Shown piece after piece: positions 8,865 to 52,953 of a stretch of 64,000 nucleotides of DNA (its first letter is position 1; each line of letters opens with the position of its first letter). The stretch is from contig NZ_AKKF01000205.1 in NCBI RefSeq assembly GCF_000281955.1, positions 1-64,000 on the forward strand, in the 5' to 3' direction. The notes beneath the pieces are model-generated. The model made no database searches. It worked only from the letters and a program-made list of their open reading frames with translations, and was not told where the DNA came from. A program made the position numbers and the translations under genes. Source of the DNA: Caulobacter sp. AP07 (GTDB lineage: Bacteria > Pseudomonadota > Alphaproteobacteria > Caulobacterales > Caulobacteraceae).

Positions 8865-9428
8865 CTATTTAACGCCTCGGGACAGATCCAGCAGGGTCTT
8901 GCGCAGCCGGAACGCGTCGATGCCGTGGGCCGCCCCGGAAATCTGCGCCAGCCAGGCGCCGTCGACCGCCAGGCGGATGACCTCGAAGAGCGGCGCGGCG
9001 TCCGTGTCGGCATGGCGTCGCAATCTCGCGTCCATCCAGGCGGTCCAGCGCGGGGTGAGGGAGCTGTCGATCGCCAGCGAGCCTCCCAGCGCCGTCCAGG
9101 CGCGGCGCGGCCGCTCGTCCATGGTCAGGGTCGCGCTGACATAGGCGCGCGTGAACCGGCCTGGCGCGGTCGGCTCATCGTCCATCTCCTGATCGATCTG
9201 CTGGTCCAGGCGTTCCAGAAGATCGTCGACCATGGCCTCGACCAGGGCCTGCTTGCTGGCGAAGTGGTGAAAGAGCCCGCCCTTGGTGACGCCGGCCGCC
9301 ACGGCCACGGCGCTGACCGTGACATTCGCCAGGCCCTGCTCGGCGGCGATGTCGATCGCGCAGTCGAGCAAGGCGCGGCGAACACGTTGCGGCTCCTTCT
9401 TTCGGGTATGGGCCGATCCGCTCGTCAA
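8865..9428 (-). CDS. TetR-family regulator coupled to SMR pump gene
   Basis: A TetR-family repressor of about 187 residues. The helix-turn-helix spans residues about 25-60, with VSAVAVAAGVTKGGLFHHFASKQ as the recognition region (the printed motif core is VTKGGLFHHF). The C-terminal ligand domain is TetR_C-like. I placed the start at TTG 9428, which overlaps the stop of the efflux gene as TTGA; the open frame continues further upstream but that part is inside the efflux gene. The coupling implies it controls the pump, probably through the ATACC/GGTAT dyad upstream of the pair. Confidence 0.85.
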   Translation of the reverse strand: MTSGSAHTRKKEPQRVRRALLDCAIDIAAEQGLANVTVSAVAVAAGVTKGGLFHHFASKQALVEAMVDDLLERLDQQIDQEMDDEPTAPGRFTRAYVSATLTMDERPRRAWTALGGSLAIDSSLTPRWTAWMDARLRRHADTDAAPLFEVIRLAVDGAWLAQISGAAHGIDAFRLRKTLLDLSRGVK

Positions 9429-9769
9429 TGGCTCACCGATTTGGAGAAGCCGTTGACGACCACCACGCCCGCGACGATCAGGCCAATGCCGAACAGGGCG
9501 GTCGGGTCGAGCCGCTGCTTGAAGACCACCACGCTGATGATCGCGGTCAGCACGATGCCAAGACCACCCCAGACCGCATAGGCGACTCCGAGCGGAACGC
9601 TGCGAAGGGCCTGGGCCAGAAGGAAAAACGAGCTGGTGTAAAACAGCGCCGAGGCCAGGGTCGGCCAGAGTTTGGTGATGTGCTCGGACTTTCCCAGGAA
9701 GGTCGTTCCGGCCACTTCGCACAGGATCGCGCCGCCGAGCGCCGCCCAGGACAAAAGCGTGGTGTTCAT
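9425..9769 (-). CDS. Small multidrug resistance (SMR/QacE-type) efflux protein
   Basis: A 114-residue inner-membrane protein with four hydrophobic helices and the family pattern CEVAGTTFLGKSE (essential membrane glutamate in the first helix), SFFLLAQALRSVPLGVAYAVW and GIGLIVAGVVVV. Such proteins exchange protons for quaternary ammonium or guanidinium compounds as antiparallel dimers. I chose ATG 9769 because it gives the usual SMR length; an upstream start would add 30 residues of unlikely sequence. It is the first gene of a two-gene unit with the TetR repressor. Confidence 0.92.
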   Translation of the reverse strand: MNTTLLSWAALGGAILCEVAGTTFLGKSEHITKLWPTLASALFYTSSFFLLAQALRSVPLGVAYAVWGGLGIVLTAIISVVVFKQRLDPTALFGIGLIVAGVVVVNGFSKSVSH

Positions 9770-9806
9770 GGCGGGCCTTTTCTCATTGATGGGAACAGCC
9801 GATAAG

Positions 9807-9824
9807 ATACCTACTGCGCGGTAT
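9807..9824 (-). promoter_or_regulatory. Inverted repeat, likely TetR operator
   Basis: ATACC-N8-GGTAT lies 38 bases before the efflux gene start, in a position suited to repression. This is the spacing and base pattern common for TetR-family operators next to efflux genes. Confidence 0.5.
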
Positions 9825-10015
9825 GTTTCAAGGGTCACACATCGAAAATCACCGGCCATATTAAAAATCAGCCGCTTCAGCCGTCGGATCAGCGCCCTGC
9901 CAGGCGCCTTCCCGCGGGGTTGCGATGGGGTCGGGATGGGGGCTTCCGCGTCACGGTTTCGACGCCATCGACCCTGACCACGGACTCAAGATCACGCCCC
10001 GAGCGCCGGCGGCGT

Positions 10016-17468: not shown

Positions 17469-18557
17469 ATGACCAGCGTTTCACAAAAAATGATCGACGC
17501 GTCGCAACGGGCCCAGAAGCGGCTGGCGGGGCGCGATACGCCGTTCGTGACCAATTGCTGGTATGTGGCCGGCTTTTCCTGGGAATTTTCCCGCGCCCTG
17601 CGCGCGCGCACCATCCTGGGACGACCGCTCGTGCTCTACCGCACCGCGGCCGACAGGCCCGTCGCGTTGTCCGATCGCTGCGTCCACAGATCCTATCCGC
17701 TCAGCGCCAGCACCCTGGACGGCGACACCATCGTCTGCGGCTATCACGGCCTGCGCTATGACGCCGATGGGCAGTGCGTCGAGGCTCCGGCCCTGCAGAC
17801 CTGTCCGCGCGGCGTCGGCGTGCGGTCCTATCCCGTGCGCGAGCAGGGACCTCTGGTGTGGATCTGGATGGGCGAGGCGCCGGCGGACGAGGCCCTGCCG
17901 ATCGGCGACTGGGTCAGCGACCCAGCCTGGCCAGCCAGCCAACAGTCCTACCATCTGCCGGCCAGCTATATCGCGCTGCACGAGAATCTCCTCGATCTGA
18001 CCCATCTGTCGTTCCTGCACGCCAACAGTTTCGGCACGCCCGATTTCGCCTCTGCGCCCTACGAAGTGGATCTGGAATCGACGCCGGGGCGGTTTGTGCT
18101 GACCCGTTCGGTCATGCCCACGCGCCTGCCGCCGGTGTGGGCCGAGCCGACCGGGCTGACGGGCCGGGACGCGGCCCGCATCACCACGTCCGAATTCCTG
18201 GCGCCATCGGCCCATGTCGTCAGCGCGCGGTTCTATGGCCTGGATGTTCCAGAGCAGGAGCGGGCCGACACGCGGATCATGACCGCCCACCTGGTGACGC
18301 CGGAAACCGCCGCCAGCACGCACTATTTCATCCATCACGCCCGCAACTTCGCCCAGGCCGATCCCGGCGTCACCCAGTTCATGAACGATCAGCTGGCCGT
18401 CGCCTTCACCGAGGACGTGGTCGGGCTCACCAAGGTCGAGCAGATGATCGCCGCCACCCCGGACGGGGACTTCTACGAGATATCGCTGAACTCCGATCGC
18501 GCGGGCCTGGCCATGCGCCGCTGGCTGTTCCAGGCCGCGCACGGCGCCGCCGACTGA
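17469..18557 (+). CDS. Rieske oxygenase, vanillate O-demethylase (VanA) type
   Basis: A 362-residue oxygenase component. The Rieske [2Fe-2S] ligands are Cys71, His73, Cys90 and His93 (CVHRSY and CGYHG). The mononuclear iron site is visible in HENLLDLTHLSFLH near residue 180. The layout matches the VanA/PobA-like group, which removes methyl groups from methoxy-aromatics or hydroxylates aromatic carboxylates. No reductase or ferredoxin gene is next to it; the ferredoxin reductase at 33.5 kb is a candidate partner. It is the last gene of the TonB receptor run, 42 bases after the aldehyde dehydrogenase. Confidence 0.92.
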   Translation: MTSVSQKMIDASQRAQKRLAGRDTPFVTNCWYVAGFSWEFSRALRARTILGRPLVLYRTAADRPVALSDRCVHRSYPLSASTLDGDTIVCGYHGLRYDADGQCVEAPALQTCPRGVGVRSYPVREQGPLVWIWMGEAPADEALPIGDWVSDPAWPASQQSYHLPASYIALHENLLDLTHLSFLHANSFGTPDFASAPYEVDLESTPGRFVLTRSVMPTRLPPVWAEPTGLTGRDAARITTSEFLAPSAHVVSARFYGLDVPEQERADTRIMTAHLVTPETAASTHYFIHHARNFAQADPGVTQFMNDQLAVAFTEDVVGLTKVEQMIAATPDGDFYEISLNSDRAGLAMRRWLFQAAHGAAD

Positions 18558-29652: not shown

Positions 29653-30669
29653 TCAAGAGACCGGCTGCAACGGGGAGCCGGCCGTCGCCTCGGCGCGCTC
29701 GCGTTCGATCATGGCGTTGAGCTTGCGTCGCACCCGAACGCTGCTGGCGTCGATCGACAGCAGGATCGGCTTGAGATCGAACAGCTCGCGCTGGCCCATC
29801 CGCCGCTGGACCGCCTCGATCATCGGCTTGTCCTCGTGATCGAACACCTGGGTGAGCGAGGCCAGGAACGCCTCGCTGCTGACCGGCGAATCCTTGGGCA
29901 GGGCAGAGGCCCAGAAATAGTGCGTGCTGGTGGCGGTTTCCGGCGTGACGATATGGGCGGCCGGCATTTCGGCCGCCTGAAAGGCCGCATCCTTCGGCGT
30001 CACCCGCGTCAGCAGCGAGTGGATGCCCGGCGCGCGCCAGCGAATGGTGTCCACGCCGGTCACCGGCGTATCGCCGACCAACATCGAGCTGGGCGCCTCG
30101 GAAGTATATTCGGAGACGACGTCGTCGCCTTCCTCCCAGGATCTGAACTTGGGCTGGTAGTTGAGGCCGCCAAACAGCGGATGGAGCATGGCCGTGTGGG
30201 TCAGGTCCATCAGGTTGTCGGAAAACAGGCGATAGTCGGCCTTGGCGGCCGAGACGCCGAACACCGGGCGCAAGGCCGAATCGGTGTGGAACGGAAAGCG
30301 GACGATGGCCTCGGTCGGCCCGGCCGGGCCCGGACCCATCCAGATCCAGATGATGTTGTCCTGCTCGAAGACCGGGAAGGTGCGGACCCGCGCCGCCTTG
30401 GGCGCGACGACATTGATGCAACTGCCGACACAGGCGCCGTGTTCGTCGAATTCCAGGCCGTGATAGCCGCAGCGCACCTTGCCGTCGACCAGCACGCCCA
30501 TCGACAGCGGCGCGAAGCGGTGAGGGCAGGCGTCCTCCATCGCCACCACCTGCCCGTCGGGCTTGCGATAGAACAGGACCGGAAGGTCCAGCAGGGTGCG
30601 GGTGAAGAACGTCTGGTCGATCTCGTGCGCCCAGGCCGCCACGTACCAGGCGTTGTAGAGATAGGGCAT
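29653..30669 (-). CDS. Rieske oxygenase, VanA type, paralogue of 37.9 kb gene
   Basis: A 338-residue oxygenase with Rieske ligands Cys48, His50, Cys67, His70 (CPHRFAP and CGYHG) and the iron site in DNLMDLTHTAMLH. It belongs to the vanillate O-demethylase oxygenase group. It is clearly paralogous to the protein at 37895 (shared YNAWY start, identical Rieske spacing and SWEEGDDV motif). GAGGTGA precedes ATG 30669; an upstream start would add a poor extension. A shared-motif site lies 97 bases upstream. No ferredoxin gene is adjacent. Confidence 0.93.
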   Translation of the reverse strand: MPYLYNAWYVAAWAHEIDQTFFTRTLLDLPVLFYRKPDGQVVAMEDACPHRFAPLSMGVLVDGKVRCGYHGLEFDEHGACVGSCINVVAPKAARVRTFPVFEQDNIIWIWMGPGPAGPTEAIVRFPFHTDSALRPVFGVSAAKADYRLFSDNLMDLTHTAMLHPLFGGLNYQPKFRSWEEGDDVVSEYTSEAPSSMLVGDTPVTGVDTIRWRAPGIHSLLTRVTPKDAAFQAAEMPAAHIVTPETATSTHYFWASALPKDSPVSSEAFLASLTQVFDHEDKPMIEAVQRRMGQRELFDLKPILLSIDASSVRVRRKLNAMIERERAEATAGSPLQPVS

Positions 30670-30766
30670 GGTCACCTCTTGGGAGCTGGCGCGCGGCCCG
30701 ACGGGGTCGCTGGCGGATGAGCCGGACAAGTCTCCAATCCCTACCAAGCCGGCGCCCCTCGACCTG

Positions 30767-30806: not shown

Positions 30807-31925
30807 TCAGCGGGCCCGGATCCAGTCGGCGATGGTGTCGGCGCTGAAGGCGATCAGCTCGGGCTGGCGAACCAGATAGTGGTCGCCGTGCTTGACCGGG
30901 ACATGGGTCACGCGGTCGCCGGCGGCGGCCTTCCAGGCCTCGCGGGTGCTGGGATAGGTCGACTGGTCGGCGGTGTGCTCCATCAGCAGGACCGGGACGC
31001 TGGTGGCGGCTAGGTTCTCGGGGCCTCGAGCCTGGGAGCGCGACGACAATTGCGAGCGGAAGGCCCGGATGCTGGTCAGGCGGCCAAAGGCGTTGGCCGC
31101 CAGGTTGACGACGCGCGGGTCGCCCCAGACGCTGCCGGCGGCGCGGTCGTTGGCGTCCAGGCTCAGATCCAGGAAGCGCGGATCGGCATGGGTGCGCTGG
31201 ATCAGGAAGAACTTGTCGGCCGGCGCGCCGGGCGTGCGCCTCAGTTGCTCGGCCTGGTCCTCGACCCAGGCCTCGATGCGATCGCGGCGCGCCAGCTGCG
31301 CCGCCTTGAACCGCTGCACGAAGTCGGCGCTGTAGGGCGGCTTGATCGGCCCGTCATAGAGGTCGAGCTCGAGATCGACCTTGCTGGGGTCGCCTTCGTC
31401 CAGCACCGCCGGATCGATCCATTCGGAAAAGATCTTGGCCCGGCCCAGATGGGCGGCGCTGAGGACGATGCCGTCGGCCGCCGGAAGATCGTCGGCCGAC
31501 AAATGCGTGGGCTCGCCGCTGACGAAATGGGTCGCCGTCAGGTTTTCGGCCTGAGACTGGTAGAAGGCGGCCAGGGAGGCGCCGCCGGAATTGCCGATCA
31601 GATAGACTTTCTCGACCCCGCGGCGGCGCAGTTCGGCCACGCCGGCCCCCAGATCGACAATCACCCGCTCCATCTCGAGCAGGCCGTCATTGCCGACATA
31701 GCGCGAATTGAGGGCCAGGCAGGCCACGCCGCGCTCGGCCAGGGGCGTGAGCAGATAGTGGCCCATATAGTTGGACGTCGGGTGCATCAGGATCGCGCCG
31801 ACCTTGGCGCCGCCTGGCGGCATGGCCAGGGCGCCGAAGATGCGCGGGCGCAGGTTCTGCAGCCCCGACTGGCTTTCCATGACGACGCCGGGACGGACGT
31901 CGATCGCAACGTGTTCGATGATCAT
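30807..31925 (-). CDS. Alpha/beta hydrolase, large form
   Basis: A 372-residue alpha/beta hydrolase. The nucleophile lies in GNSGGAS (about residue 114), the acid in EHTADQSTYP and the histidine in HGDHYL. The long middle insertion (about residues 130-300) distinguishes it from the smaller hydrolases in the window. It may cleave an ester or a ring-fission product. It starts 16 bases after the VOC dioxygenase-like gene, so the two are probably co-transcribed. Ring cleavage by the VOC protein then hydrolysis by this one is possible but unproven. Confidence 0.85.
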   Translation of the reverse strand: MIIEHVAIDVRPGVVMESQSGLQNLRPRIFGALAMPPGGAKVGAILMHPTSNYMGHYLLTPLAERGVACLALNSRYVGNDGLLEMERVIVDLGAGVAELRRRGVEKVYLIGNSGGASLAAFYQSQAENLTATHFVSGEPTHLSADDLPAADGIVLSAAHLGRAKIFSEWIDPAVLDEGDPSKVDLELDLYDGPIKPPYSADFVQRFKAAQLARRDRIEAWVEDQAEQLRRTPGAPADKFFLIQRTHADPRFLDLSLDANDRAAGSVWGDPRVVNLAANAFGRLTSIRAFRSQLSSRSQARGPENLAATSVPVLLMEHTADQSTYPSTREAWKAAAGDRVTHVPVKHGDHYLVRQPELIAFSADTIADWIRAR

Positions 31926-34797: not shown

Positions 34798-34925
34798 GGG
34801 CAGGGGGCCAGGCTTGAGCCTATCAAAACAAGGCCCGAGAGCAGCGACGCCGTCACTCTGGCGACACGCTTTCCGCCTGGACGCGAGGCCTTTGGGTCCG
34901 ATTGTCCGTCAAAGAGGATCTGGGA

Positions 34926-35523: not shown

Positions 35524-36987
35524 TCATGAATGATAGGCAAGCTTGCCGCCGTCGGTGAAGCGCGACATCCGGTAGCCGCCCAGATCGAAGCTTGGCGCGC
35601 GGCCCGTGGCGAGGTCGGCCAGGGCCTCTCCCGCCGCCGGGCCAAACGTCAGGCCGTTGGCGAAGCCGCTGCCGATGAACAGGCCCGGGACCCGCGGAGC
35701 CTCGGAAATCACCGGCATGTTGTCGATCGTCGTGCTGATCGCGCCGGCCCAGCGGTCCCGGATCTGGGCCGCCGCGAAGACCGGGAACCGCTCGATCAAC
35801 TTGGCCAGGGCCTCGGCCGGAGGCCTGGCCCAGTAGATCGGCTCCAGGATGCGCCGCGCCTCGAAGGGCGAGGGGCGATCAAGTTTCCACCGGCGGGGCG
35901 ACATCATCTCGTCCCACGCGCGGCTTGCCGAAAAGCCCAGGCGCGCCTGGGGCATCAGCGCCTGGACCGTGGACGGCGCCGAGAGCGCCGCAGCGATCAG
36001 ATCGCCATCGAGCGGGACGGCCATCTCGACGACCCCGACCGAATAGCCGCCGTCGATCTGTCGGCGAAAGCCGAAGGCCTCCGACGACAGCGAAACCTCC
36101 GGCCCGGCGACCGGCGACAGCGAGAGCATCGACAGGAAGACATCGACTTGCCGAAATCCCGCCCCGACGCTGCGGGCGAACATCGGCGACCAAGCCCCAC
36201 CGGCCAGAATGACCGCCTTGCAGGCGATCACGCCGCGTTCGGTGACGACGCCCGAGACGCGGCCGGCCGAGGTTTCCAGCCCTCGAGCGGCGCAGTTCTG
36301 CAGGACGATCGCGCCCTTGCGCTGGGCGGCCTCGGCGATGGCGGGCGCGGCCAGAACCGGCTCGACCGACGCGTCGGTCTGGCTCAGCAGCGCCTGATCG
36401 GGCGGGTCGCGCATGGCCGGAAAAAGCCGCGCGATCTCGGATTTGGAAATCACCCGCCCATCGACGCCGGGCGCGCCGGCGACCGAGGCCAGCCAGGCCT
36501 CGGCATAGGCCGCCTGCTCGGGCCCGGCCAACGGCGCGACGACGCCGGTGCGACGATAGCCCGTCTCCAGGCCGGTTCGCGCGTTCATGGCCGCCCAAAG
36601 GGTCTTGGAGCGCTCCAGCAGGCCCATCTTCGCCGGATCGGCCCACTGGCTGTAGACAAAGCCCATCGATCGGCCCGAGGCTTCCCCGGCGACCACGCCC
36701 TTTTCGCACAGCGCCACCGACACGCCGCGCTCAGCCAGGGTTAGGGCCGCGCTGGCCCCGACGAACCCGCCGCCGATCACCACCACGTCCACCGCGGCCG
36801 GAAGACGGTCGGCGCCGACCAGGCTCCGAGCGCGCGATCGGCCCAACGCGACGCCGACCTCGGTTCGCGACAGAACCAGGGCGCCGGCCGCCCCGCCGGC
36901 TCCCGCCGCGAGAGCGCCGCCGATCAGAAGCCGGCGGGAAAACCCGCCGCGCGTCGGCTTGCCGCCGTCAGAATCCGTTTTTGGCAT
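35524..36987 (-). CDS. FAD-dependent oxidoreductase (DAO family) with Tat signal
   Basis: A 487-residue DAO-superfamily flavoenzyme. The N-terminus has a twin-arginine signal (FSRRLLIGGALAAGAGG), so a folded, flavin-loaded protein is exported to the periplasm. The FAD loop VVIGGGFVGASAALTLAERG follows near residue 70 and GLFIGSGFANGLTFGP is near the C-terminus. It would oxidise a C-N bond (an amino acid, amine or similar). ATG 36987 is chosen because AGGGA precedes it and the Tat motif is then correctly placed. A shared-motif site lies 69 bases upstream. Confidence 0.9.
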   Translation of the reverse strand: MPKTDSDGGKPTRGGFSRRLLIGGALAAGAGGAAGALVLSRTEVGVALGRSRARSLVGADRLPAAVDVVVIGGGFVGASAALTLAERGVSVALCEKGVVAGEASGRSMGFVYSQWADPAKMGLLERSKTLWAAMNARTGLETGYRRTGVVAPLAGPEQAAYAEAWLASVAGAPGVDGRVISKSEIARLFPAMRDPPDQALLSQTDASVEPVLAAPAIAEAAQRKGAIVLQNCAARGLETSAGRVSGVVTERGVIACKAVILAGGAWSPMFARSVGAGFRQVDVFLSMLSLSPVAGPEVSLSSEAFGFRRQIDGGYSVGVVEMAVPLDGDLIAAALSAPSTVQALMPQARLGFSASRAWDEMMSPRRWKLDRPSPFEARRILEPIYWARPPAEALAKLIERFPVFAAAQIRDRWAGAISTTIDNMPVISEAPRVPGLFIGSGFANGLTFGPAAGEALADLATGRAPSFDLGGYRMSRFTDGGKLAYHS

Positions 36988-37056
36988 GTCCGTCCCTTGG
37001 CCCCGCGTCCGGTCTTCACCGCCGCCGATGTCGCCGTGCTCCACGGCCGCGGGCTA

Positions 37057-37806: not shown

Positions 37807-37894
37807 TGACCCATCGCGATTTTGTGACGGATCGCCGGCAGCGACTGGAGCTCTCCTGAGCGCCCATGCCGGGATCGTGAATGGGGCCGAAACC

Positions 37895-38905
37895 ATGACC
37901 TACATCTACAATGCCTGGTATCCCGCCGGTTGGGTCCACGAATTAGAAAAGGGCCCTATCGCCCGGAAATTCCTGGATATTCCGGTGATGATCTATCGCC
38001 TCTCGACCGGCGTCCTGGCGGCGCTTCACGATCGTTGCCCGCACCGCTTCGCGCCGTTCTCCTACGGCACGATCGTCGAGGACAAGGTGCGCTGCATCTA
38101 TCACGGCCTGGAATTCGACAGCGCCGGCAGGTGCGTTGGCAACGCGCTGTGTTTCGCCGCGCCCAAGGTCGCCAAGGTCCGCAGCTTCCCGGTGTTCGAA
38201 CAGGACAACGTGGTCTGGATCTGGATGGGCGAAGAGGAGCCCGCCGACACCTCGACGATCCCTCGCTACGCCTACCACAACGACCCGAAATACCGCTGCG
38301 TCTACGGCAACAACTACACCAAGGCCGACTACCGCCTGCTGTGCGACAACCTGATGGACCTGACCCACATCGTGCTGCTGCATCCGGTGTTCGACGCCCT
38401 GCACCGCAAGCAGAGCTTCAAGTCCTGGGAGGAAGGCGACGACGTCCTGGCCAGCTACAGCGCCGTCGAGCCGCACGAGGAATATCACACGATCAACACC
38501 ATCCGCTGGGCCGCTCCGGGCAACCACGACCTGGAAATGCACATCATCCCCGACTTCGGCAAAGGGCCGGTGATCCAGGAATGGTCGGCCAACCTGCTGA
38601 CCCCGGAGACCAAATACACCTCGCACTACCTGTGGAGCGTGGCGGTGTCGGTGGATTCCCCCGAGACCGACGAGCAGATCTACGATCGCATGATCCAGGT
38701 CGTCGACCGCGAGGATTCCTGGATGATCGAGGGCGTCCAGGACCGCATGGGCGAGGCCGACCTGTTCGATCTCGACCCGGTGCTGATCGCCACCGACGCG
38801 GCCGGGGTGCGCATGCGCCGCAAGCTGGCCGCCATGGTCGAGAAGGACGCGGCCAGGCGGGCCGCCCGGGCCGCCAGCCGCGAAGCGGCGCCGGTGAGCG
38901 CCTAG
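37895..38905 (+). CDS. Rieske oxygenase, VanA type, paralogue of 30.7 kb gene
   Basis: A 336-residue oxygenase with Rieske ligands Cys48, His50, Cys67, His70 (CPHRFAP and CIYHG) and iron site DNLMDLTHIVLLH. Shares YNAWY, NLMDLTH and SWEEGDDV blocks with the protein at 29653-30669, so the two arose by duplication but have diverged in the substrate-binding half. Both belong to the vanillate O-demethylase oxygenase group. Start at ATG 37895; an in-frame GTG six codons earlier is less likely. It has no partner reductase next to it. Confidence 0.93.
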   Translation: MTYIYNAWYPAGWVHELEKGPIARKFLDIPVMIYRLSTGVLAALHDRCPHRFAPFSYGTIVEDKVRCIYHGLEFDSAGRCVGNALCFAAPKVAKVRSFPVFEQDNVVWIWMGEEEPADTSTIPRYAYHNDPKYRCVYGNNYTKADYRLLCDNLMDLTHIVLLHPVFDALHRKQSFKSWEEGDDVLASYSAVEPHEEYHTINTIRWAAPGNHDLEMHIIPDFGKGPVIQEWSANLLTPETKYTSHYLWSVAVSVDSPETDEQIYDRMIQVVDREDSWMIEGVQDRMGEADLFDLDPVLIATDAAGVRMRRKLAAMVEKDAARRAARAASREAAPVSA

Positions 38906-39153: not shown

Positions 39154-40530
39154 TCAGGCGTCGAGCGCCACCGCGCCAGCCAGGCGCGGAATAGCGCTCA
39201 CGTCGATATGCTCGTTGCGCGGCAGGTCGAAAATCGGGAAGCGGGCGACCGTGGCGCGGATCTTCTTCTGCCGAGCTCCCGGCTCGCCCCAGACGATCTC
39301 GACCTCGCCGCCCAGATCGGCATGGGCGATGTCGATCGGGCAGAGCGAGATCATCGCCCGATAGTAGTAGCTATAGACCCGGCCCATCGACAGACCGACG
39401 CGGACGCCGTCCTTCAACACCTCGTCGACATGGCTGACCATGCCGTTCTTGCTCCAGATCGTGTCGGCCTGGAACGTCATGAAGTCATGGGCCGGCCCCT
39501 TCTCGAAGAACGAGGCGTAGACGTCCAGGATGTCCTGAACGTTCCAGATCAGGGTGACGACCGCGCGCCGCGGCGCGGCCACCAAGGCGGCAAGGGCCTC
39601 GCGGCCGATGAAGTCGTGGTCGAACTTGACCACATGGCTCCAGCCCAGGTCGATCGGATTGGAATAGCGGGCGGCCAGATCCGGCCCGGCGCTGCCTTCC
39701 AACTGGGCGAAGTGTCCGGCGTAGTAGTCCATGGCCTCGCCCAGATAGGCGATGAAGTCGGGGTCCTGATGCCAGGCGGCCATGAAATGGATGGCCACCT
39801 GGGGAAAGCCGTTCTCGGTGTGGTTCATGCCGTAGACCAGCATGCCGATCCGCTCGACCCCGAACGGCTGACCCGCCTGCAGGATCTTGGCATAGACGGG
39901 CAGGGCGTCCTCGATCCTGCCGTGGACCTCGTAGGCCAGACTACCGGCCATGCCGATGCGCAGGACCTTGATGTCCACGACCTGGCCGCTCTCGACCGTG
40001 ATCTGGGCCGGCCGGTGGCGCAGGAACTTGATGTCGTGCAGATCTTCCTGCAGCGCCGCTTCCAGGATTTCCAGCGAACGCGGCCCCGCGACCTGGAACA
40101 TGAACACCTGGCCCGTCAGGTCCTCGCCCTTGACGTCGTACTTACCGGAATCGACGAAGTAGTTGATGTAGGGCGACAGGTAGAAGGTGATGAACTCGTC
40201 TTCGCCGGTGCGCAGCAACATGCCGTGGGCCATGATATTGCCCTGGGCGTTGCACATCACCGCATGCTTGGAGCCGCCGATCGAGAACTTGGCGAAGCTG
40301 TTGACGCAGGTGTCCGCAAACAGCTTCATCGCGTCGGGGCCGGAGATCTTATAGGGATAGGTGGGATTGAGCCCCGCGTGCAGATAGGCGGTGTCCTTCC
40401 AGGACATCACCTCCTTTTGCCAGCCGGCGAACTCCCAGGGGGTCAGATGGCCCGACGTCGAATTGTACGCGGCGACCTCGGGGTCCAGCGGCAGGTAGGG
40501 ACTGTGGGGGATCTGGCCTGGATCGTTCAT
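39154..40530 (-). CDS. Aminomethyltransferase (GcvT)-family protein, LigM/DesA-like O-demethylase candidate
   Basis: A 458-residue GcvT-fold protein (FAGWQKEVMSW at the start, GMAGSLAYEVHG in the folate-binding half, GVRVGLSMGRVYSYYYRA later). Glycine-cleavage T protein is about 370 residues and is found with gcvH and gcvP, which are absent here. Length and context fit the tetrahydrofolate-dependent O-demethylases LigM and DesA, which move the methyl of vanillate or syringate to tetrahydrofolate. folB, folD and purU lie just upstream on the same strand and would handle the C1-folate. A dimethylglycine or sarcosine demethylase is the main alternative. Confidence 0.85.
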   Translation of the reverse strand: MNDPGQIPHSPYLPLDPEVAAYNSTSGHLTPWEFAGWQKEVMSWKDTAYLHAGLNPTYPYKISGPDAMKLFADTCVNSFAKFSIGGSKHAVMCNAQGNIMAHGMLLRTGEDEFITFYLSPYINYFVDSGKYDVKGEDLTGQVFMFQVAGPRSLEILEAALQEDLHDIKFLRHRPAQITVESGQVVDIKVLRIGMAGSLAYEVHGRIEDALPVYAKILQAGQPFGVERIGMLVYGMNHTENGFPQVAIHFMAAWHQDPDFIAYLGEAMDYYAGHFAQLEGSAGPDLAARYSNPIDLGWSHVVKFDHDFIGREALAALVAAPRRAVVTLIWNVQDILDVYASFFEKGPAHDFMTFQADTIWSKNGMVSHVDEVLKDGVRVGLSMGRVYSYYYRAMISLCPIDIAHADLGGEVEIVWGEPGARQKKIRATVARFPIFDLPRNEHIDVSAIPRLAGAVALDA

Positions 40531-40662
40531 CGACTGTCTCCTCGAGCGCTCGGCCCTGATGGAATGGGAAGGGTGGCGGGGTCAGGACCGGTCCGCGAAC
40601 CGGCGGCGACTTGACGGCGCCTTGGCTGAACGGACGCTAGCAACTCGCCGTGCGCCCAAATA

Positions 40663-40678
40663 TCACCCCGGCTTGGGA
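40663..40678 (-). promoter_or_regulatory. Shared-motif variant before O-demethylase (TCACC-N6-TGGGA)
   Basis: Both halves are the weaker variants seen singly at other sites. It lies 132 bases before the demethylase start. Confidence 0.45.
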
Positions 40679-40688
40679 CGAAGCCGGG

Positions 40689-41117
40689 TCAGACGTTGCG
40701 CCCCATGGCTGGAGCGACGCGCGCCACGACCACCCGCGCGCCGGCCAGGGCCTCGCGCAAGGCGGCCGGCTTCTCGACCGCCACCTCGGCCGCCAGCACG
40801 ACCGCATGCTCCAGGCAGGCCAGGGCCAGACGCCGCGCGAAGGTCTCGATCAAGCCGATGCGCTCGCCGGCCAGCGACTGGGCGTGAACGACGATTTGGT
40901 TGTAGTCGATCGTCTCGCCCAACTGATCGACCAGGACCGGAGACACCTCCAGCACCACGTCGATATCGAGCCGTTGCCTTTGGCCGATCTCGTGGTCGTG
41001 GACGCCGATGTCGGCCTCGACTCGCAGGCCGCGCACCATCACCTCGGCCCGGACGACCTGGGCCGAGGCTTCGGCGACCAGCGCCCGTTCAGGCGTGACC
41101 TTGGCGATCGCGTTCAT
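40689..41117 (-). CDS. folB: Dihydroneopterin aldolase
   Basis: A 142-residue FolB-type aldolase/epimerase, cleaving dihydroneopterin to hydroxymethyl-dihydropterin for folate synthesis. Recognisable parts are ADIGVHDHEIGQRQ, TIDYNQIVVH, the glutamate of IGLIETFARRLA and the lysine of VEKPAAL. It has an N-terminal extension of about 20 residues. Its start overlaps the folD end by 29 bases, so it is in one operon with folD and purU. Presence in this catabolic setting suggests boosting the tetrahydrofolate supply. Confidence 0.9.
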   Translation of the reverse strand: MNAIAKVTPERALVAEASAQVVRAEVMVRGLRVEADIGVHDHEIGQRQRLDIDVVLEVSPVLVDQLGETIDYNQIVVHAQSLAGERIGLIETFARRLALACLEHAVVLAAEVAVEKPAALREALAGARVVVARVAPAMGRNV

Positions 41118-41967
41118 CCGACAGGCTCCTTGCGGCTTTGACGGTGTTGGCCAGCAGGCAGGCGATGGTCATCGGGCCCACGCCGCCGGGGACCGGCGTG
41201 GCCGCTCGGGCGTGGCCGAGTTCCTCGGTGGCGGTGTCGCCCACCAGGCGCGCGCCGCCATCGGATTGATGAACCCGGGTGATGCCGACGTCGATGACCA
41301 CGCAGCCGGGCTTGATCCAGTCGCCCCGCACCAGGCGCGGACTGCCGGCGGCGGCCACGACGATATCGGCGCGGCGGACGATGTCGGGCAGGTCGCGCGT
41401 ATGGATATGGGTGATGGCCACGGTGCATTCGCGCTCGAGCAGCAGCAGCGAGACCGGCTTGCCGACGATGTTGGACTTGCCGATGACCACGGCGTTCAGG
41501 CCGCGGTAGTCGTCGATGACCGAGTCCAGCAGCATCATGCAGCCCAGCGGCGTGCAGGGCACCAGCCCGCCGGTCCCGGTCGATAGTCGCCCGACATTGA
41601 CCGGGTGAAAGCCGTCGACATCCTTGCTGGGCTTGATGCTCTGCAGGACCTTGCCCGCGTCGATCTGCGGCGGCAGGGGCAGTTGCACCAGGATTCCATG
41701 GACGTCGGGATCGGAGTTCAATCGCGCCACCAGGATCAGGAGATCCGCCTCCAGGCAATCGCGCGACAGGCGGTGTTCCTGCGACACGATCCCAACCTGG
41801 CTGCACTTGGCGACCTTGCGGCGGACATAGACCTCGCTGGCCGGGTCGTCGCCGACCAGCACCACGGCCAACCGCGGCGTGAGACCCGTCGCCGTCAGGG
41901 CCGCGACGTCCTGGGCAAGGCTTGCGCAGAGCCGTTCGGCGATCGCCGCGCCGTCGATCAGTTGCAC
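41089..41967 (-). CDS. folD: Methylene-THF dehydrogenase / methenyl-THF cyclohydrolase
   Basis: A 292-residue bifunctional enzyme that oxidises 5,10-methylene-THF to methenyl-THF (NADP) and hydrolyses it to 10-formyl-THF. The catalytic lysine is in YVRRKVAKC, the folate motif QLPLPPQID follows, and the NADP motif is GKSNIVGKPV. PVPGGVGPMT is the second signature. It starts at GTG 41967, four bases after purU, and overlaps folB. Here it would oxidise the C1 unit taken from methoxy groups. Confidence 0.93.
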   Translation of the reverse strand: MQLIDGAAIAERLCASLAQDVAALTATGLTPRLAVVLVGDDPASEVYVRRKVAKCSQVGIVSQEHRLSRDCLEADLLILVARLNSDPDVHGILVQLPLPPQIDAGKVLQSIKPSKDVDGFHPVNVGRLSTGTGGLVPCTPLGCMMLLDSVIDDYRGLNAVVIGKSNIVGKPVSLLLLERECTVAITHIHTRDLPDIVRRADIVVAAAGSPRLVRGDWIKPGCVVIDVGITRVHQSDGGARLVGDTATEELGHARAATPVPGGVGPMTIACLLANTVKAARSLSDERDRQGHA

Positions 41968-41971
41968 CGCC

Positions 41972-42832
41972 CTAGTCCTGGAAGACGACGGTCTTGGCGC
42001 CGTTGAGCAACACCCGGTCCTGCAGATGGAAGCTGACCGCCCGGGCCAGAACCCGGCGCTCGATATCCCGGCCCTTGCGCACCAGATCGTCGGGCGCGTT
42101 GGCGTGGCTGACGTGCTCGATGTCCTGAGCGATGATCGGTCCTTCGTCCAGGTCCCCGGTCACGTAGTGGGCCGTCGCGCCGATGATCTTGACGCCGCGG
42201 GCGTGGGCCTGATGGTAGGGCTTGGCGCCCTTGAAGCTGGGCAGGAAGCTGTGGTGGATGTTGATGCAGCGCCCGCTGAGAAAGCTGGCCAGATCGTCCG
42301 ACAGGATCTGCATGTAGCGCGCCAGGATGATGAGCTCGGCGCCGGTGTCCTCGACGATGGCCTTGATGGCCGCTTCCTGCTCGGCCTTGGTCTCCTTGGT
42401 GATCGGCAGGTGGTGGAACGGGATGTCGCCGAAGTCGGCCCCGCCATAGGTGGCCCGCGCGTGGTTGGAGACGATCCCGACCACGTCCATCGCGATCTCG
42501 CCGATGCGGTGGCGGTAGAGCAGGTCGACCAGGCAGTGGTCGAACTTCGAGGCCAGCAGCAGAACCTTGCGCAAGGTGTTCTTGGGCCGCACCGTCCAAT
42601 GGGTGGCGAACGCCTGGACCGCTTCGCCGAAATTGCGCCCCAGCTCGGCTTGGTCCACCCCCGCGGGAAGGTCGAACTCGATCCGAGTGAAGAACATCCC
42701 CGTTTCGACGTCGTTAAACTGGTGCGCCTCCAGGATGTTGCCGCCGCAAGCGAACAGATATCCCGTCACGCGCGTCACGATGCCCGCCTGGTCTGGGCAT
42801 GAAAGGGTAAGGAGATAAGGTGTCCGCGACAT
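41972..42832 (-). CDS. purU: Formyltetrahydrofolate deformylase
   Basis: A 286-residue PurU with an N-terminal ACT domain ([20 protein letters not shown]) and a formyltransferase-fold hydrolase domain with [21 protein letters not shown] (core [14 protein letters not shown]) and the aspartate of [12 protein letters not shown]. It releases formate from 10-formyl-THF and regenerates THF. ATG 42832 gives the usual family length. It leads purU-folD-folB. The AT-rich stretch 42840-42870 is a likely promoter and a shared-motif site lies 135 bases upstream. Confidence 0.93.
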
Positions 42833-42967
42833 GTGACTTCTCGCACGATTTATATATTGTCGGTATCTGTACAAACTGCACCGTCATCGGCTCGCCGAAC
42901 AGGTGTTTACAGATGCGATGCAGAGATCGACTTCACCTGTATTTGCGCAGTGCGTCGTTTCGGGCAA

Positions 42968-43531: not shown

Positions 43532-43909
43532 TCAGGCCCACGGCGTTAGCGGGCGCACGGCCGTTTGCGCGCGCAGCCCTTCGGCTTGGACAAATTCCCA
43601 CACCGAACGATAGTCGACCTTCAGGTCTCAGACGATCCGCAGTTCGGCCACCAGCCCGCGAAAGGTGAAGGGCTTCTCCCGGCAGCGCGCGATCAGCCAC
43701 ACGGCGTGCTCACCCCGGATCGTTCTGAGCTTGTAGCCGCCGACCTTGCGAGGCGCCGCGCTCCCCGTCGCCCCGAACCGCGCCACCCAGTTGATCGCCG
43801 AGCTTGGCGAGACGCCAAAACGTGCAGCCGCCTGACGGCGTGACATCCCGCCCGTCACGACGGCCGAGATCACGCGATGTCGTAAATCCAGCGAATAGGA
43901 TTTCGCCAT
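43532..43909 (-). pseudogene. IS630-family transposase relic
   Basis: The frame begins as an IS630 transposase (MAKSYSLDLRHRVISAVV, then MSRRQAAARFGVSPSSAINW, a helix-turn-helix of residues about 20-60). An in-frame TGA at 43628-43630 interrupts it. The same frame then continues with DLKVDYRSVWEFVQAEGL, the typical next block, and ends at a stop at 43532. The catalytic DDE part is missing. It is therefore a decayed and truncated element. I could not define its terminal inverted repeats. Confidence 0.8.
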
Positions 43910-43991
43910 CCTGTCGCCCCCTCCGATCATGGAGCACCTTGCCCATGGCGACGCCCAAAGAGGTCGAGGCGCCATGGGCCGCGGCGGAGCG

Positions 43992-44738
43992 TCAGACCAG
44001 GAAGCGCCCGCCATCGACGACAATCCGAACACCGGTCGAGGCCGTCAGCAGGGTGGCGCAGGCCAGGACGGCGCGGGCGACGTCCTCGGGCTCGACGATC
44101 TTCTTCAAAGGCGTCGACTGCGCGATCTTGGCCAGCGCCTCGCGACCACGCCCGGCCACGAAATCGGTGGCCACCGCGCCGGGCGACACGCAAAGCACGC
44201 GGATCTCCGGTCCCAGGACGCGCGCCAAGGACAGGGTCATGGTGTCCAGGGCGGCCTTGGAGGCGCAATAGGCCACGTTGCTGCCCGAGCCGGTGAATCC
44301 CGAGATCGACGAGATATTGACGATCACGCCGTCGCCCGAGGCCTTGAGCAGCGGCGCGAAGGCGCGAACGGCGGCGAACGGGCCCCTGGTGTTGCCAAGC
44401 AGAATCTGGTCGATCAACGCGTCGTCGAGCGCGTCCAGATCGCCATGCGGCACGGGACGGGTGGTTCCCGCGGCGTTGATCAGGATGTCGGCCCGGCCGT
44501 ATCGCGCCTCGACGGCCTTGGCCGCCGCCTGCAGCGAAGCCGAATCGTCGATCTGGATGGCCATCGCCTGGTGACCGCCGCCGGGCAGCGCCGCAACCAC
44601 ACCGTCGGCCTTGTCCCGGTTGCTGTTGTAGCCGACCACCACGGTCGCGCCCGCCGCCGCCAACTGCTGGGCGGTGGCCGCGCCGATGCCGCCGCTGGCG
44701 CCGATCACCACGGCGACTTTTCCCGTCAGACTGTCCAT
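43992..44738 (-). CDS. Short-chain dehydrogenase/reductase
   Basis: A 248-residue classical SDR, NAD(P)-dependent. The cofactor loop is GASGGIGAATAQQL, NAAG follows near residue 88, and the catalytic serine, tyrosine and lysine are in ISSISGFTGSGSNVAYCASK (core VAYCASK). It overlaps the fumarylacetoacetase stop (TGATG) and GAGGGA precedes the ATG, so it is the third gene of the homogentisate operon. The reaction is unknown; there is no maleylacetoacetate isomerase in the operon and this SDR is not one. Confidence 0.9.
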   Translation of the reverse strand: MDSLTGKVAVVIGASGGIGAATAQQLAAAGATVVVGYNSNRDKADGVVAALPGGGHQAMAIQIDDSASLQAAAKAVEARYGRADILINAAGTTRPVPHGDLDALDDALIDQILLGNTRGPFAAVRAFAPLLKASGDGVIVNISSISGFTGSGSNVAYCASKAALDTMTLSLARVLGPEIRVLCVSPGAVATDFVAGRGREALAKIAQSTPLKKIVEPEDVARAVLACATLLTASTGVRIVVDGGRFLV

Positions 44739-46042
44739 CAATTTCCCTCGACTGTTCGCGCGGCGGAAATGGTCCCGCGACACACACCAAAACCAATGCC
44801 GACAAAGCCGTCCCGCTCGCAGCGGCCGGTCATCACCACCTCGTCGCCGTCCTCCAGGAACCGGCGGATCTCGCCCTCGGCGAGGGTGATCGGCTCACGG
44901 CCGCCAGAGGTGATCTCCATCAGGCTGCCAAACCCGCCGACGCCCGGGGAGGACACCGTGCCGGTGCCCAGAAGATCGCCGGCTTCCAGGTTGCATCCCC
45001 CGACCGTGTGGTGCGCCACCAACTGGGCCGGCGTCCAGTAGAGGTCGGTGGCCCGAGCTCGCCCGACCACGCGCGGCGCCTGCCCCCCGGCCCGCATCGC
45101 CGGACTGCGGATGGCGACCTCCAGCGCGATGTCCAGAGCCCCGCCGGCCTGATCGGCCGCGCAGTCCAGATAGGGCAGCAGCGCGGGCGCGTCGCTCGGG
45201 CGCGCCGGCTGGGCCGACCGGAACGGCGCCAGCGCCTCCATGGTGATCACCCAGGGCGAGACGGTGGAGGCGAAGTTCTTGGCCAGGAAGGGCCCAAGGG
45301 GCTGATATTCCCACGCCTGGACGTCGCGGGCCGACCAGTCGTTGAGCAGGCTGACGCCGGCCAGGCGCGAGGCGGCGTCCTCGATGCCGATCGGCTCGCC
45401 CTGCGCGTTGCCCTGGCCCATCCACAGGCCCAGTTCCAACTCGTAGTCCAGACGTTGCGAGGGCTTGAGCACGGGGGGTGTGTCGCCGTCCCGCACCTGC
45501 CCCCAGGGCCGGCGCACGACATCGTCGGACACCCGCACCGAGGAGGCGCGACCGTGATAGCCGATCGGCACGTAGCGGTAGTTGGGCATCAACGGATTGT
45601 CGGGCCGCAGCAGCCGTCCGACATTGGTCGCGTGGATGATCCCGGCATAGAAGTCGGTATAGCCGCCGATCCGCGCGGGCAGGTGCATGACGCAGTCGCC
45701 AGCCGCGCGCAGGTGAGGCCGCAGCGCGGCCTCGCCCGCGCCGCCTTCCAACAGCAGATCGAACAATACATGGCGCAGGGCCAGACGCGCGGACGCGTCC
45801 AGCGCGAACAGACCGTTGAGCCTGGGCTTGGCGACGACGGCGGCGACCGGCGCGGGCAACAGGCCCGCCTGGGCCAGACCCGCCAGATCGACGATCTCGT
45901 CGCCGATGGCCACGCCGCAGCGCGGCGGCCCTGAATCGTCCGAAAACACGCCCAAAGGCAGGTTCTGGATCGGGAAGTCGCGATGGGTGTTGGCCGAGCT
46001 CACCCAACTGCGGGCGGCCGAATCGTGAGTATGGTCGATCAT
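44738..46042 (-). CDS. fahA: Fumarylacetoacetase
   Basis: A 434-residue fumarylacetoacetate hydrolase, which splits fumarylacetoacetate into fumarate and acetoacetate, the last step of homogentisate breakdown. FAH N-terminal domain features are [11 protein letters not shown] and the C-terminal barrel has [12 protein letters not shown] (metal ligands), [21 protein letters not shown] (core [14 protein letters not shown]) and [10 protein letters not shown]. Length matches full FAH rather than the shorter FAH-domain hydrolases. It overlaps hmgA by four bases and the SDR by one. Confidence 0.94.
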
Positions 46043-47334
46043 CGCGGCGGCGCGCCCTTCTCGAAACCTTGCCAGCAGGCGTCGTAGTCGTCCTGAAGCT
46101 GCGGGCTGGCCATCGCGCAGAGGGTGGGGCGATAGGTCCAGCGGCTTTCGAACATGAAGGCGATGCTACCGGCCAGCCGTCGCGGCTCCAGCTCGGCGGC
46201 GATCGCCATGCCGTAGGCGGTGCGGTCGGGACCGTGGGCCTGCATGCGGTTGTGCAGCGAACTGCCGCCCGGCACGAAGCCGCCTTCCTTGGCGTCATAG
46301 GAGCCGTAGATCAGCCCCATGTACTCGCTCATCACGTTGCGATGGAACCAGGGGGGACGGAAGGTGTCCTCGGCCACCAGCCAGCGCGGAGGAAAGATCA
46401 CGAAGTCCATGTTGGCGGTGCCGGCCACCTCGCTCGGGCTGGTCAGAACCGTGTAGATCGACGGATCGGGATGGTCGAAGGAGATGGCGCCCACTGGGCA
46501 GAAGCGCGACAGGTCGTAGCGATAGGGCGCCAGGTTGCCGTGCCAGGCGACCACGTCGAACGGTGAATGATCCAGCACCGTGCTCCAGAGCGCGCCTTCG
46601 AACTTCTGGACGCAGACGGTCGGCTGATCGACATCCTCATAGGCGGCGACCGGGGTCTCGAAATCGCGGGAATTGGCCAGGCCGTTGGCCCCGATCGGCC
46701 CCAGTTCGGGCAATCGCAGAGCCGCGCCGTAGTTCTCGCAGATATAGCCGCGGATCGGCCCGTCGATCAGCTCGACGCGGATCTTCACGCCGCGCGGTAT
46801 CACGACGATGAAGCCGGGCTCGGCCTCGATTCGCCCGAACTCGGTGACGAAGCGCACCGCGCCCGACTGCGGCACGATCAGCATCTCGCCATCGGCGTTG
46901 TAGAACACCCCCCCCATCGAGCGATTGGCGACATAGAGATGGACGGCGCTGCCGGTTCCCATCGAGACGTCGCCGTTTCCGGCCATGGTCACCAGGCCCT
47001 CGACGAAGTCGGTCGGCGTCTCGGGGACGGGAAGGGGATCCCAGCGCAGGCGGTTGGGCGAGGGCGGGGTCTCGACGAATGGTCCCGAGCGCAGGGTCGG
47101 GTGCGGCCGCGCCAGTTCGAACGGTCCGTGGCCGGCCGAGGGCCGCAGGCGGTAGAACCAGCTGCGCAGGTTTTCGGCGCGGGGGGCGGTGAACGCCGTC
47201 CCGGAAAGCTGCTCGGCATAGAGGCCAAAGGCGGCCTTCTGCGGAGAATTGCGCCCGATCGGCAGGGCGCCGAGCCTCGCCTCGGTGGCGAACTGGTTGC
47301 CAAAACCGGACAGGTAGTCGGTCGAGCGGGTCAA
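46039..47334 (-). CDS. hmgA: Homogentisate 1,2-dioxygenase
   Basis: A 431-residue iron(II) dioxygenase that opens the ring of homogentisate to maleylacetoacetate. It starts with the family sequence [16 protein letters not shown]. Iron ligands expected are His331, Glu337 ([13 protein letters not shown]) and His367 (RMQAHGPD). I placed the start at TTG 47334, six bases after a strong GGAGGAG; the frame is open further upstream but that part is not family-like. First gene of hmgA-fahA-SDR, with a fully symmetric shared-motif site 204 bases upstream. Confidence 0.95.
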
Positions 47335-47698
47335 TCTGGTCTCCTCCAAACAGCATCGCCTTGGATCCGTCCCGCAGGTGGACGGCCTGGCCGGCGAGTT
47401 GGGTGTCTGGCGGCGGGGACGGCGCGCGGCCGCGCGAACGCGACCAGATCCGCCGTCTTGTTCAAAGCCGCTGACAACCTGCTGGTCTCGCCTGGAAAAT
47501 CGATAGGGCGACACTATCGGCGCGCCCTTGGCGGCCAATACCCGTGCGAGGGTACGAAAGGGGGGCGGGGCCCGCCGAGGCCCGCGAGGGGAGCCAGCAG
47601 GGGCGGGGCCCGGGTGGTCCCGGCGGCCGGCGGGCCTGACGCGCGCCGGCGAATGATAAACCGCCGACGACGTCTACGGGCGCGCGCCGACCCCGCGC
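47335..47698. other. Gene-free stretch between hmgA and LuxR B
   Basis: No gene supported. It holds the hmgA promoter region with the symmetric shared-motif site at 47539-47554; the rest is very GC-rich. Confidence 0.6.
47539..47554 (-). promoter_or_regulatory. Shared operator-like site 10, fully symmetric (TACCC-N6-GGGTA)
   Basis: Both halves are perfect, with ATACCC on the gene side, 204 bases before hmgA. One of two perfect palindromic members of the set. Confidence 0.65.
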
Positions 47699-51691: not shown

Positions 51692-51744
51692 GTGCCCGGC
51701 CCGGCCCGGCGACCTAGCCTGGGTCGTCAATGTTGGGAGCGGCC

Positions 51745-52953
51745 ATGAAATATTCCGGCGACATCAGCGAGCAGGAAATCCTGGCGTCTCACCTGACCGC
51801 GGTCGAGGTCGAGAACGTCACCAAACCGCTCGAGCAGGCGTCCGTCATGCCGCTCAAGGTCTACAGCAACCGGGCCTATCACGAGCGCGAGGTCGAGAAG
51901 GTCTTGCGGCCCAGCTGGCATGCCCTGGCGCGGGTGCACGAGGTGGCCGAACCGGGCGCCTTCGTCACGTCCGCGATCTTCGGCGAGCCGGTGCTGATCA
52001 TCCGCGGCAAGGACGGGGTGCTGCGCGCCCTGTCGAACGTCTGCCGCCACCGCGGCACCCAGTTGATGACCGACTGCGGCGTGGCCAAGGCGCTGGTCTG
52101 CCCCTACCACTCCTGGACCTACAACATCGACGGTGGGCTGCGCGGCGCGCCGCAGATGAACAAGATCGAAGGGTTCGATCCCAAGACGGTGCGCCTGCCG
52201 GAGTTCAAGCTGGAGGTGTGGAACGGCTTCGTCTTCGTCAATCTCGATCCCCAGGCCGAACCGCTGGCCGGGCAGATCTCCGCGCTGACCGAGAAGCTCG
52301 CCGTCTACAAGCTCGACGACTGGGTGTCGGTGCCGTGGAAGGAATTCGAGTTCGACTGGAACTGGAAGATTTCCCTGGAGAACTTCTCCGAGGCCTATCA
52401 CCACATCGGCGTCCACAAAAATAGCATCGGCAAGGTCTCGCTGGCCGAGAACGCGCTCTACGAAGACACCAACAACAACTACTCGCTGTTCTTCGTCCAT
52501 ATCGGCGGCCACGACGACGAGTATCTGCCGGAGGCGGGCCACCCGTTCCCCAACATCCCCAACCTGCCGCCGTTCTTCCACGAATATTCGCCGGTCGTAA
52601 ACATCTATCCCACCTTCCACATGGTGATGGGCCCCAACTTCATGCTCTGGCTGCGCATCGAGGTCGAGGCGGTGGACCGGCATCGCCTGATCTGGCGCTG
52701 GATGGTCGCCCCCGAAAGCGCGCAGCTGCCCGATTTCGAGGAACGGCTGAAGGAACTGGACGCGATGATGGCGCCGATCGTCGCCGAAGATGTCGGCTTC
52801 ATGCCCCGCGTGAAGGCCGTGGTGCGCTCGCAGGTGTTCGAGCCGGGACGCTACTGCGACCAGGAGCGCGCGCTGCACCAGATGCACCAGTGGCTGCTGG
52901 CCAAGATGGGCGCGGCCGCCGACGCCCTCCTGCCCAAAACTCAGACGGCCTAG
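51745..52953 (+). CDS. Rieske ring-hydroxylating oxygenase alpha subunit
   Basis: A 402-residue oxygenase of the aromatic ring-hydroxylating family. Rieske ligands are Cys100, His102, Cys119, His122 (CRHRG and CPYHSW). The iron site is in NFSEAYHHIGVH. It is of the alpha-only type (glycine betaine, stachydrine, carnitine or phthalate-like oxygenases), as no beta subunit gene follows. Start ATG 51745 has GGGAG five bases upstream. Substrate could be a small quaternary amine or an aromatic acid. It precedes an enolase-superfamily dehydratase. Confidence 0.92.
   Translation: MKYSGDISEQEILASHLTAVEVENVTKPLEQASVMPLKVYSNRAYHEREVEKVLRPSWHALARVHEVAEPGAFVTSAIFGEPVLIIRGKDGVLRALSNVCRHRGTQLMTDCGVAKALVCPYHSWTYNIDGGLRGAPQMNKIEGFDPKTVRLPEFKLEVWNGFVFVNLDPQAEPLAGQISALTEKLAVYKLDDWVSVPWKEFEFDWNWKISLENFSEAYHHIGVHKNSIGKVSLAENALYEDTNNNYSLFFVHIGGHDDEYLPEAGHPFPNIPNLPPFFHEYSPVVNIYPTFHMVMGPNFMLWLRIEVEAVDRHRLIWRWMVAPESAQLPDFEERLKELDAMMAPIVAEDVGFMPRVKAVVRSQVFEPGRYCDQERALHQMHQWLLAKMGAAADALLPKTQTA

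Follow-up and report, generated by a model that had tools for sequence, protein, structure and literature searches.

The stretch of DNA analysed here, the first 64,000 nucleotides (nt) of contig NZ_AKKF01000205.1 of Caulobacter sp. AP07 (called the window below), carries on its minus strand, at positions 39154-42874, a cluster of four genes that reads purU, folD, folB and the gene of an enzyme with the GcvT fold. With moderate confidence, this cluster is interpreted as a one-carbon (C1) disposal unit, in which the enzyme would give its C1 group to tetrahydrofolate (THF) at the methylene level, and FolD and PurU would carry it on to formate without the participation of MetF.

In the proposed route, the enzyme would move a C1 group from a substrate that is probably aromatic, and possibly of plant type, to THF. 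The group would most likely enter as 5,10-methylene-THF, because the branch of the family to which the enzyme belongs carries the residue set of the methylenedioxy-ring demethylenases SesA and BrdA. The dedicated second FolD of the genome would convert 5,10-methylene-THF to 10-formyl-THF, from which PurU would release formate and regenerate THF, while the second FolB may supply THF precursor and so help to keep the THF pool large. Entry at the methylene level needs no MetF, which would explain why metF is missing from the cassette. Exit of the C1 unit as formate through PurU had already been suggested in the first-pass annotation of this DNA, and the FolD and PurU families beside the enzyme support it in outline. 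To our knowledge, very few enzymes are known that remove methylenedioxy bridges in bacteria in a folate-dependent manner. A literature search on demethylenases of methylenedioxy compounds turned up none for that combination of terms; a search for a THF-dependent demethylase with purU or folD led to work on dimethylsulfide only, and one for LigM or O-demethylase with purU or folB gave nothing on topic by title. Judged by titles, a further search yielded papers about chloromethane and C1 metabolism in general.

Family, branch and active-site residues of the enzyme

The enzyme gene (39154-40530, minus strand) encodes 458 amino acids (aa) with a Pfam GCV_T domain (98.7 bits). By sequence, the nearest solved protein in the PDB is LigM (5x1i, E 1.2e-40), a vanillate/3-O-methylgallate O-demethylase (5x1i/5tl4) which has the same fold and 28-31% identity and is likewise adjoined by C1-folate genes. 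LigM also gives the best fold matches of a structure model (Z 31.0, root-mean-square deviation 2.8 Å over 390 residues); because a T-protein follows with nearly the same score (Z 30.0 over 338 residues), the fold alone is not decisive. Against the NCBIfam equivalogs, the enzyme scores 206 bits for LigM, where 580 are needed, and 199 bits for the syringate O-demethylase DesA (NF047633), where 800 are needed. Since both scores are far below their cut-offs, the enzyme is a member of the LigM/DesA superfamily and neither of the two equivalogs.

The GCV_T domain, and the annotation of relatives as aminomethyltransferases in the database, might suggest the glycine-cleavage T-protein itself or one of its paralogues. 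This reading is scarcely credible and in effect refuted, as the enzyme reaches only 49.5 of the 300 bits required by NF001567 (GcvT) and the genome has a separate full-length gcvT (292 bits) beside two P-protein genes on another contig (C148), which bears out the earlier statement that glycine-cleavage partners are lacking at the locus. Removal of a nitrogen-bound C1 group together with a flavin adenine dinucleotide oxidoreductase (35524-37044), in the manner of dimethylglycine and sarcosine oxidases, is also improbable. The methylene-THF formed would again require no MetF, the oxidoreductase is a DAO-family flavoprotein whose gene follows downstream at 2.1 kb in the same orientation, the best plasmid matches of the window purU (68%) have a gene for sarcosine oxidase gamma next to them, which also counts against the preferred reading, and a xanthine-dehydrogenase-type enzyme is encoded near the copy of R. 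lusitanum. However, the enzyme is a stand-alone protein with no fused flavin domain, the flavoprotein gene is not adjacent, as a gene of the VOC family and a Rieske gene on the opposite strand intervene, and the soxA score is 57.3 bits where 1164 are required. LigM ranks above dimethylglycine dehydrogenase and sarcosine oxidase both by sequence and by fold, and the sarcosine/dimethylglycine reading was rejected; the clustering with such demethylases that the first-pass annotation had named as counting against its own proposal was not seen.

SesA (LC101493), the sesamin demethylenase of Sinomonas sp. no. 22, and the BrdA berberine demethylenases are GcvT-like and THF-dependent, as the window enzyme would be, and BrdA proteins are 429-463 aa long, according to the available part of PMC5547118. 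The stand-alone GcvT-like fold of 458 aa agrees with this type (about 430-460 aa). The same part of that source gives R81, H82, R100, R179 and H225 of SesA as the expected proton donors, all of which except R81 are kept by every BrdA tested, and D95, E189 and Y221 as predicted THF-binding residues (PMC5547118). Transferred by these published numbers, with offsets of +7 and +12, the SesA sites fall on K88, H89, H102, R107, R191, E201, Y233 and H237 of the window enzyme, whose K88/H89/R107/R191/H237 is the BrdA pattern and retains every proton donor outside the variable R81 position. The map is checked by an actinobacterial member of the family (locus L006), in which all eight SesA letters recur at the spacing of SesA itself, over a span of 145 residues.

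The residues were then counted over relatives gathered from plasmids, from named contigs, at the level of order, class and phylum around the source genome, and across the order to which a Microbacterium genome belongs. Of 83 plasmid records, 21 contributed regions, and of 28 genomes with matches in the Microbacterium order, 20 contributed stretches; the resulting 102 family rows are 101 proteins from the retrieved stretches plus LigM. Fragments shorter than 300 aa (L058, position 49, and L084) and the second enzyme of Rhodococcus erythropolis R138 (L218) stand outside the counts. The scan of named contigs with the enzyme gave eight loci, seven on the LigM side and one (L006) on that of the window enzyme, and among viral contigs, which were scanned with two degenerate patterns, no relative of the enzyme was confirmed.

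Both histidines (sites 89 and 237) occur together in 14 of the 102 rows, the window enzyme included (below, the signature rows; two of them, from the Psychrobacter loci L056 and L057, share one protein accession). Histidine at site 237 is found in none of the other 88 rows, and 13 of the 14 signature rows have their residues at the SesA spacing, versus none of the 88. LigM itself has Q, Y and T at the positions of H89, R107 and H237. The marks of LigM show the opposite distribution. Its substrate-pocket residues H60 and R122 and its catalytic Y247, which we take to correspond to sites 56, 118 and 233 of the window enzyme, are present in 87 (histidine), 63 (arginine) and 88 (tyrosine) of the 88 LigM-side rows, versus 0 (13 other letters and one gap), 2 and 9 of the 14 signature rows, respectively. 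The window enzyme keeps the tyrosine (Y233) and has P56 and L118 where LigM has the pocket histidine and arginine.

The trees divide the family in the same way. A quick tree was computed from 79 rows picked without regard to these residues. In it, 12 rows including the window enzyme stood apart from 62 rows with LigM (support 84 and 96), and both histidines occurred in all 12 of the former versus none of the 62. A careful tree was built from 13 of the signature rows and 31 of the 88 LigM-side rows (44 in all). There, one branch separates the two sets with support 100/100, and the window enzyme groups, with support 97/92, with proteins of Deinococcus and Psychrobacter and of an actinobacterial genome (L188). 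Its closest kin are encoded by the plasmid pDrdI of Deinococcus wulumuqiensis (53% identity), by two Psychrobacter plasmids (52%) and by L188, of the Microbacterium order (49%). Over the 102 rows, identity to the window enzyme is at least 35.2% in the signature rows and at most 33.7% in the remaining ones. The enzyme therefore does not belong to the LigM side of the family and is not LigM or DesA in the narrow sense.

These results modify the first-pass annotation, which had proposed a THF-dependent O-demethylation unit and a phylogeny with LigM. THF-dependent C1 removal and the common superfamily stand; a LigM/DesA-type demethylase of vanillate or syringate does not agree with the bit scores, the tree or the residues, and that reading is probably wrong in its key step, namely that the enzyme makes methyl-THF. 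As a separate observation, haloarchaeal plasmids (L141 and L142) carry homologues that are basal on the LigM side, at six places on a single plasmid of Halobellus limi; no metF, purU or folD was found in the stretches retrieved from them.

metF and the origin of the folate cassette

LigM-type O-demethylases yield 5-methyl-THF, and in SYK-6 the operon reads ligM-metF-ligH (PMC6888825, in its available part), whereas the product of SesA is given as 5,10-methylene-THF in the accessible text of PMC9560768. Because an enzyme acting at the methylene level requires no MetF ahead of FolD, the presence of metF was compared between the two sides of the family, with neighbouring genes scored on the open reading frames by blastp with PurU, FolD and FolB of the window, three MetF and one further FolB. 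Where purU or folD lies no more than 6 kb from the enzyme gene, metF also lies within that distance in 29 of 31 LigM-side rows versus none of seven signature rows (Fisher test, 2.9e-6, a value that overstates the independent evidence, because the rows are related and the contrast is a single split of the tree). Counted by locus, with one mixed locus omitted, the figures are 27 of 29 versus none of seven, and without the condition on purU or folD they are 45 of 88 versus one of the 14 signature rows. A laxer tblastn search of the signature-group stretches found metF only at L061, directly after an enzyme of the LigM side, and in the window tblastn at 1e-3 found none.

The combination of purU, folD and folB had been regarded as different from the known partners of such enzymes. 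This claim did not hold as it stood, as homologues of the three genes stand beside a LigM-family enzyme also on plasmids of Novosphingobium pentaromativorans US6-1 (pLA3) and Sphingobium TomTYG72, the latter with the same purU-folD-folB order preceded by metF. In both cassettes metF is present and the enzyme is of the LigM side, and since purU, folD and folB thus occur on that side as well, the absence of metF is the informative feature of the window. The six best matches of the window folD, found at LigM-side loci of the same family, of the same order and of sphingomonads, are 70-73% identical to it, and folD at loci of the enzyme's own branch is only 41-49% identical; for purU, the best LigM-side match (L096, same taxonomic family) has 69% identity. 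Judged from these identities, the window locus would most likely be a LigM-type cassette that lacks metF and stands beside a SesA-type enzyme.

Other C1 systems offer comparisons. The dicamba demethylases Dmt, Dmt50 and Dmt06 (466-475 aa) are also THF-dependent and form 5-methyl-THF, a likeness drawn from their description in the available part of PMC9404685. A plasmid purU of Methylorubrum extorquens CM4, from its chloromethane utilisation cluster, is 55% identical to that of the window. Unlike the window cluster, the CM4 cluster contains corrinoid methyltransferases and metF. On a Rhodococcus opacus plasmid (L143:2261-9311), two LigM-side enzymes are found with metF, purU, folD, pabB and a Mur-ligase-family gene, so that folate biosynthesis genes again accompany a demethylation set.

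A different explanation is that the enzyme acts as a genuine O-demethylase on a new substrate and forms 5-methyl-THF, which the general MetF would oxidise or methionine synthase would use, with FolD and PurU acting as in LigM-type units. This is possible but clearly less probable. LigM is the closest solved relative of the enzyme, its catalytic tyrosine is kept, the window folD is nearest to those of the LigM side, the genome has one methylenetetrahydrofolate reductase (MTHFR), and two of the 31 LigM-side rows with purU or folD likewise have no metF. The count of none in seven versus 29 in 31 argues against it, as do the absence of the LigM histidine from all 14 signature rows and the presence of the SesA-type histidines in them.

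Several observations nevertheless weigh against the preferred reading, in which the C1 group enters at the methylene level. The residue map was built from published residue numbers and not from an alignment with the SesA and BrdA sequences, and the 14-row group is defined by the two histidines, so that only the trees test it as a group. Single marks are not exclusive (His89 in five and Arg107 in 18 of the 88 LigM-side rows), and the window enzyme has histidine at the D95 position and lysine at the R81 position of SesA. The structure model has a predicted local distance difference test (pLDDT) score of 70, with most of residues 231-274 below 50, so that H237 cannot be placed in three dimensions and the pocket cannot be judged from it. 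At the level of the neighbourhoods, L061 is a signature row with metF nearby, six of the 13 signature loci without a LigM-side enzyme have no folate gene within 6 kb, some of these stretches being short, and the window purU is also 63-64% identical to purU of two loci of the enzyme's own branch (L059 and L138). Lastly, no neighbouring gene in the window points to a methylenedioxy substrate.

The cluster genes and their housekeeping counterparts

The open reading frames and families named in the first-pass annotation were confirmed. On the minus strand, purU (formyl-THF deformylase, 41972-42874) matches Pfam Formyl_trans_N and TIGR00655 (328 bits; cut-off 286), and folD (methylene-THF dehydrogenase/cyclohydrolase, 41089-41967) matches Pfam THF_DHG_CYH/_C and NF010785 (403 bits; cut-off 396), which makes both assignments firm. 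The assignment of folB (dihydroneopterin aldolase, 40689-41117) is good, as its Pfam FolB score of 68.2 bits (1.1e-18) exceeds the cut-off of 31.8; the NCBIfam equivalog cut-off is not reached (59.6 vs 72.15 bits). The listed start of purU (TTG) is probably too early, the likely one being an ATG 14 codons further in.

The four genes have a third-position GC of 0.87-0.89, matching that of neighbouring genes. purU and folD are separated by 4 nt, folD and folB overlap by 29 nt, and 158 nt lie between folB and the enzyme gene. A hairpin directly 3' of folB (40667-40688, minus strand) could be a terminator or attenuator, although it is not above chance, since the region has three terminator-like sites versus 2.3 in shuffled sequences. 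Because of this hairpin and the 158-nt gap, it is uncertain whether the enzyme gene is co-transcribed with the other three.

The genome (326 contigs, 5.6 Mb) has one further folD (C191) and one further folB (C135) above the cut-offs, and three other Formyl_trans_N matches in frames of 196, 340 and 660 aa. Its sole MTHFR gene is on yet another contig (C308), near a homocysteine S-methyltransferase gene on the same strand. Because the other folD and folB, the MTHFR gene and gcvT with gcvP all reside elsewhere, the cluster is an added set and not the housekeeping one. In a sample of 101 genomes weighted toward the genus, the enzyme has matches at E 0.001 in 12, its own genome included, nine of which are only 23-29% identical. 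As so few genomes of such a sample match, the enzyme gene appears to be accessory and was probably acquired.

Neighbourhoods of the relatives and of the window

In Rhodococcus erythropolis R138, two signature enzymes are encoded among folD, purU, folP and genes for maleylacetate reductase, a P450 and Rieske proteins, together with a catechol-type dioxygenase (by the Gene Ontology term in the record); no metF was found over the 34.6 kb that the two stretches cover in total. A methylenedioxyphenol would be demethylenated to a hydroxyquinol, which would suit the dioxygenase and the maleylacetate reductase of this strain. Hydroxyquinol can also derive from a methoxy compound, which again counts against demethylenation as the explanation.

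The closest relatives have other neighbours. Genes for a small multidrug resistance (SMR) exporter and a TetR regulator adjoin the enzyme on the Deinococcus wulumuqiensis plasmid (L055), which is large and has a Tn3-family transposase gene near the enzyme, and on the two Psychrobacter plasmids (L056 and L057), which are small, mobilizable and from Canada and Antarctica, the Antarctic origin being given in the available part of PMC10457243. That part describes the copy on pA3H8, a plasmid of the environmental Psychrobacter sp. ANT_H3, as a predicted glycine-cleavage T-protein, considered rather non-functional since the strain does not use glycine (PMC10457243), and the placement in the tree offers an alternative reading of it. 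In the Microbacterium order, a close homologue with one early in-frame TAG (L188:8240-9700, minus strand) is adjoined by a TetR gene and that of a 510-aa MFS transporter. The window itself encodes an SMR exporter, 62-65% identical to those of the plasmids, followed by a TetR regulator (TetR_C_28), at 8865-9859 on the minus strand and 29 kb from the enzyme. SMR proteins at least 57% identical to that of Deinococcus occur in nine other genomes of the genus, in eight of which the enzyme has no match at thresholds of 0.001 and 1e-15. Because similar exporters thus occur in congeners that have no match to the enzyme, little weight is given to the pair in the window.

One speculation, which we consider doubtful, is that the immediate subclade represents a mobile module for detoxifying cationic methylenedioxy plant alkaloids of the berberine or sanguinarine kind. 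Here the demethylenase would destroy the ring of such compounds, which an SMR or MFS pump under TetR control would otherwise expel. The source genome would then have coupled this module to a formate-exit cassette without metF, turning detoxification into catabolism, and the presence or absence of metF in such cassettes would generally report methyl- or methylene-THF as the product of an uncharacterised family member. Among the ten literature matches viewed, none linked a berberine demethylenase to SMR efflux by its title.

Other genes of the window suggest that it is perhaps a region of aromatic or steroid degradation. Rieske oxygenases of the VanA type (three) and a ring-hydroxylating alpha subunit are encoded at 17469-18557, 29653-30747, 37877-38905 and 51730-52953, along with a ferredoxin reductase at 33499 and a flavin reductase at 34902. 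Directly beside a VanA-type oxygenase, a 372-aa frame of coding-like composition (30807-31925, minus strand) matched no Pfam family and, by sequence, no PDB entry. Genes for an SDR protein, fumarylacetoacetase and homogentisate 1,2-dioxygenase stand in a row at 43992-47538 beside a LuxR-type regulator. They were considered as the downstream path of the cluster, and nothing was found that links them to it. Between them and the folate genes, a 134-aa HTH_23/HTH_28 protein (43628-44032, minus strand) resembles the front part of an IS630-type transposase.

The preferred reading of the cluster, a C1 disposal unit fed at the methylene level, has consequences beyond this genome. Homologues of the enzyme are currently annotated as vanillate demethylases or aminomethyltransferases, and should the metF rule and the signature of two histidines prove right, this large misannotated family could be divided, by genome reading alone, into enzymes that make methyl-THF and enzymes that make methylene-THF.

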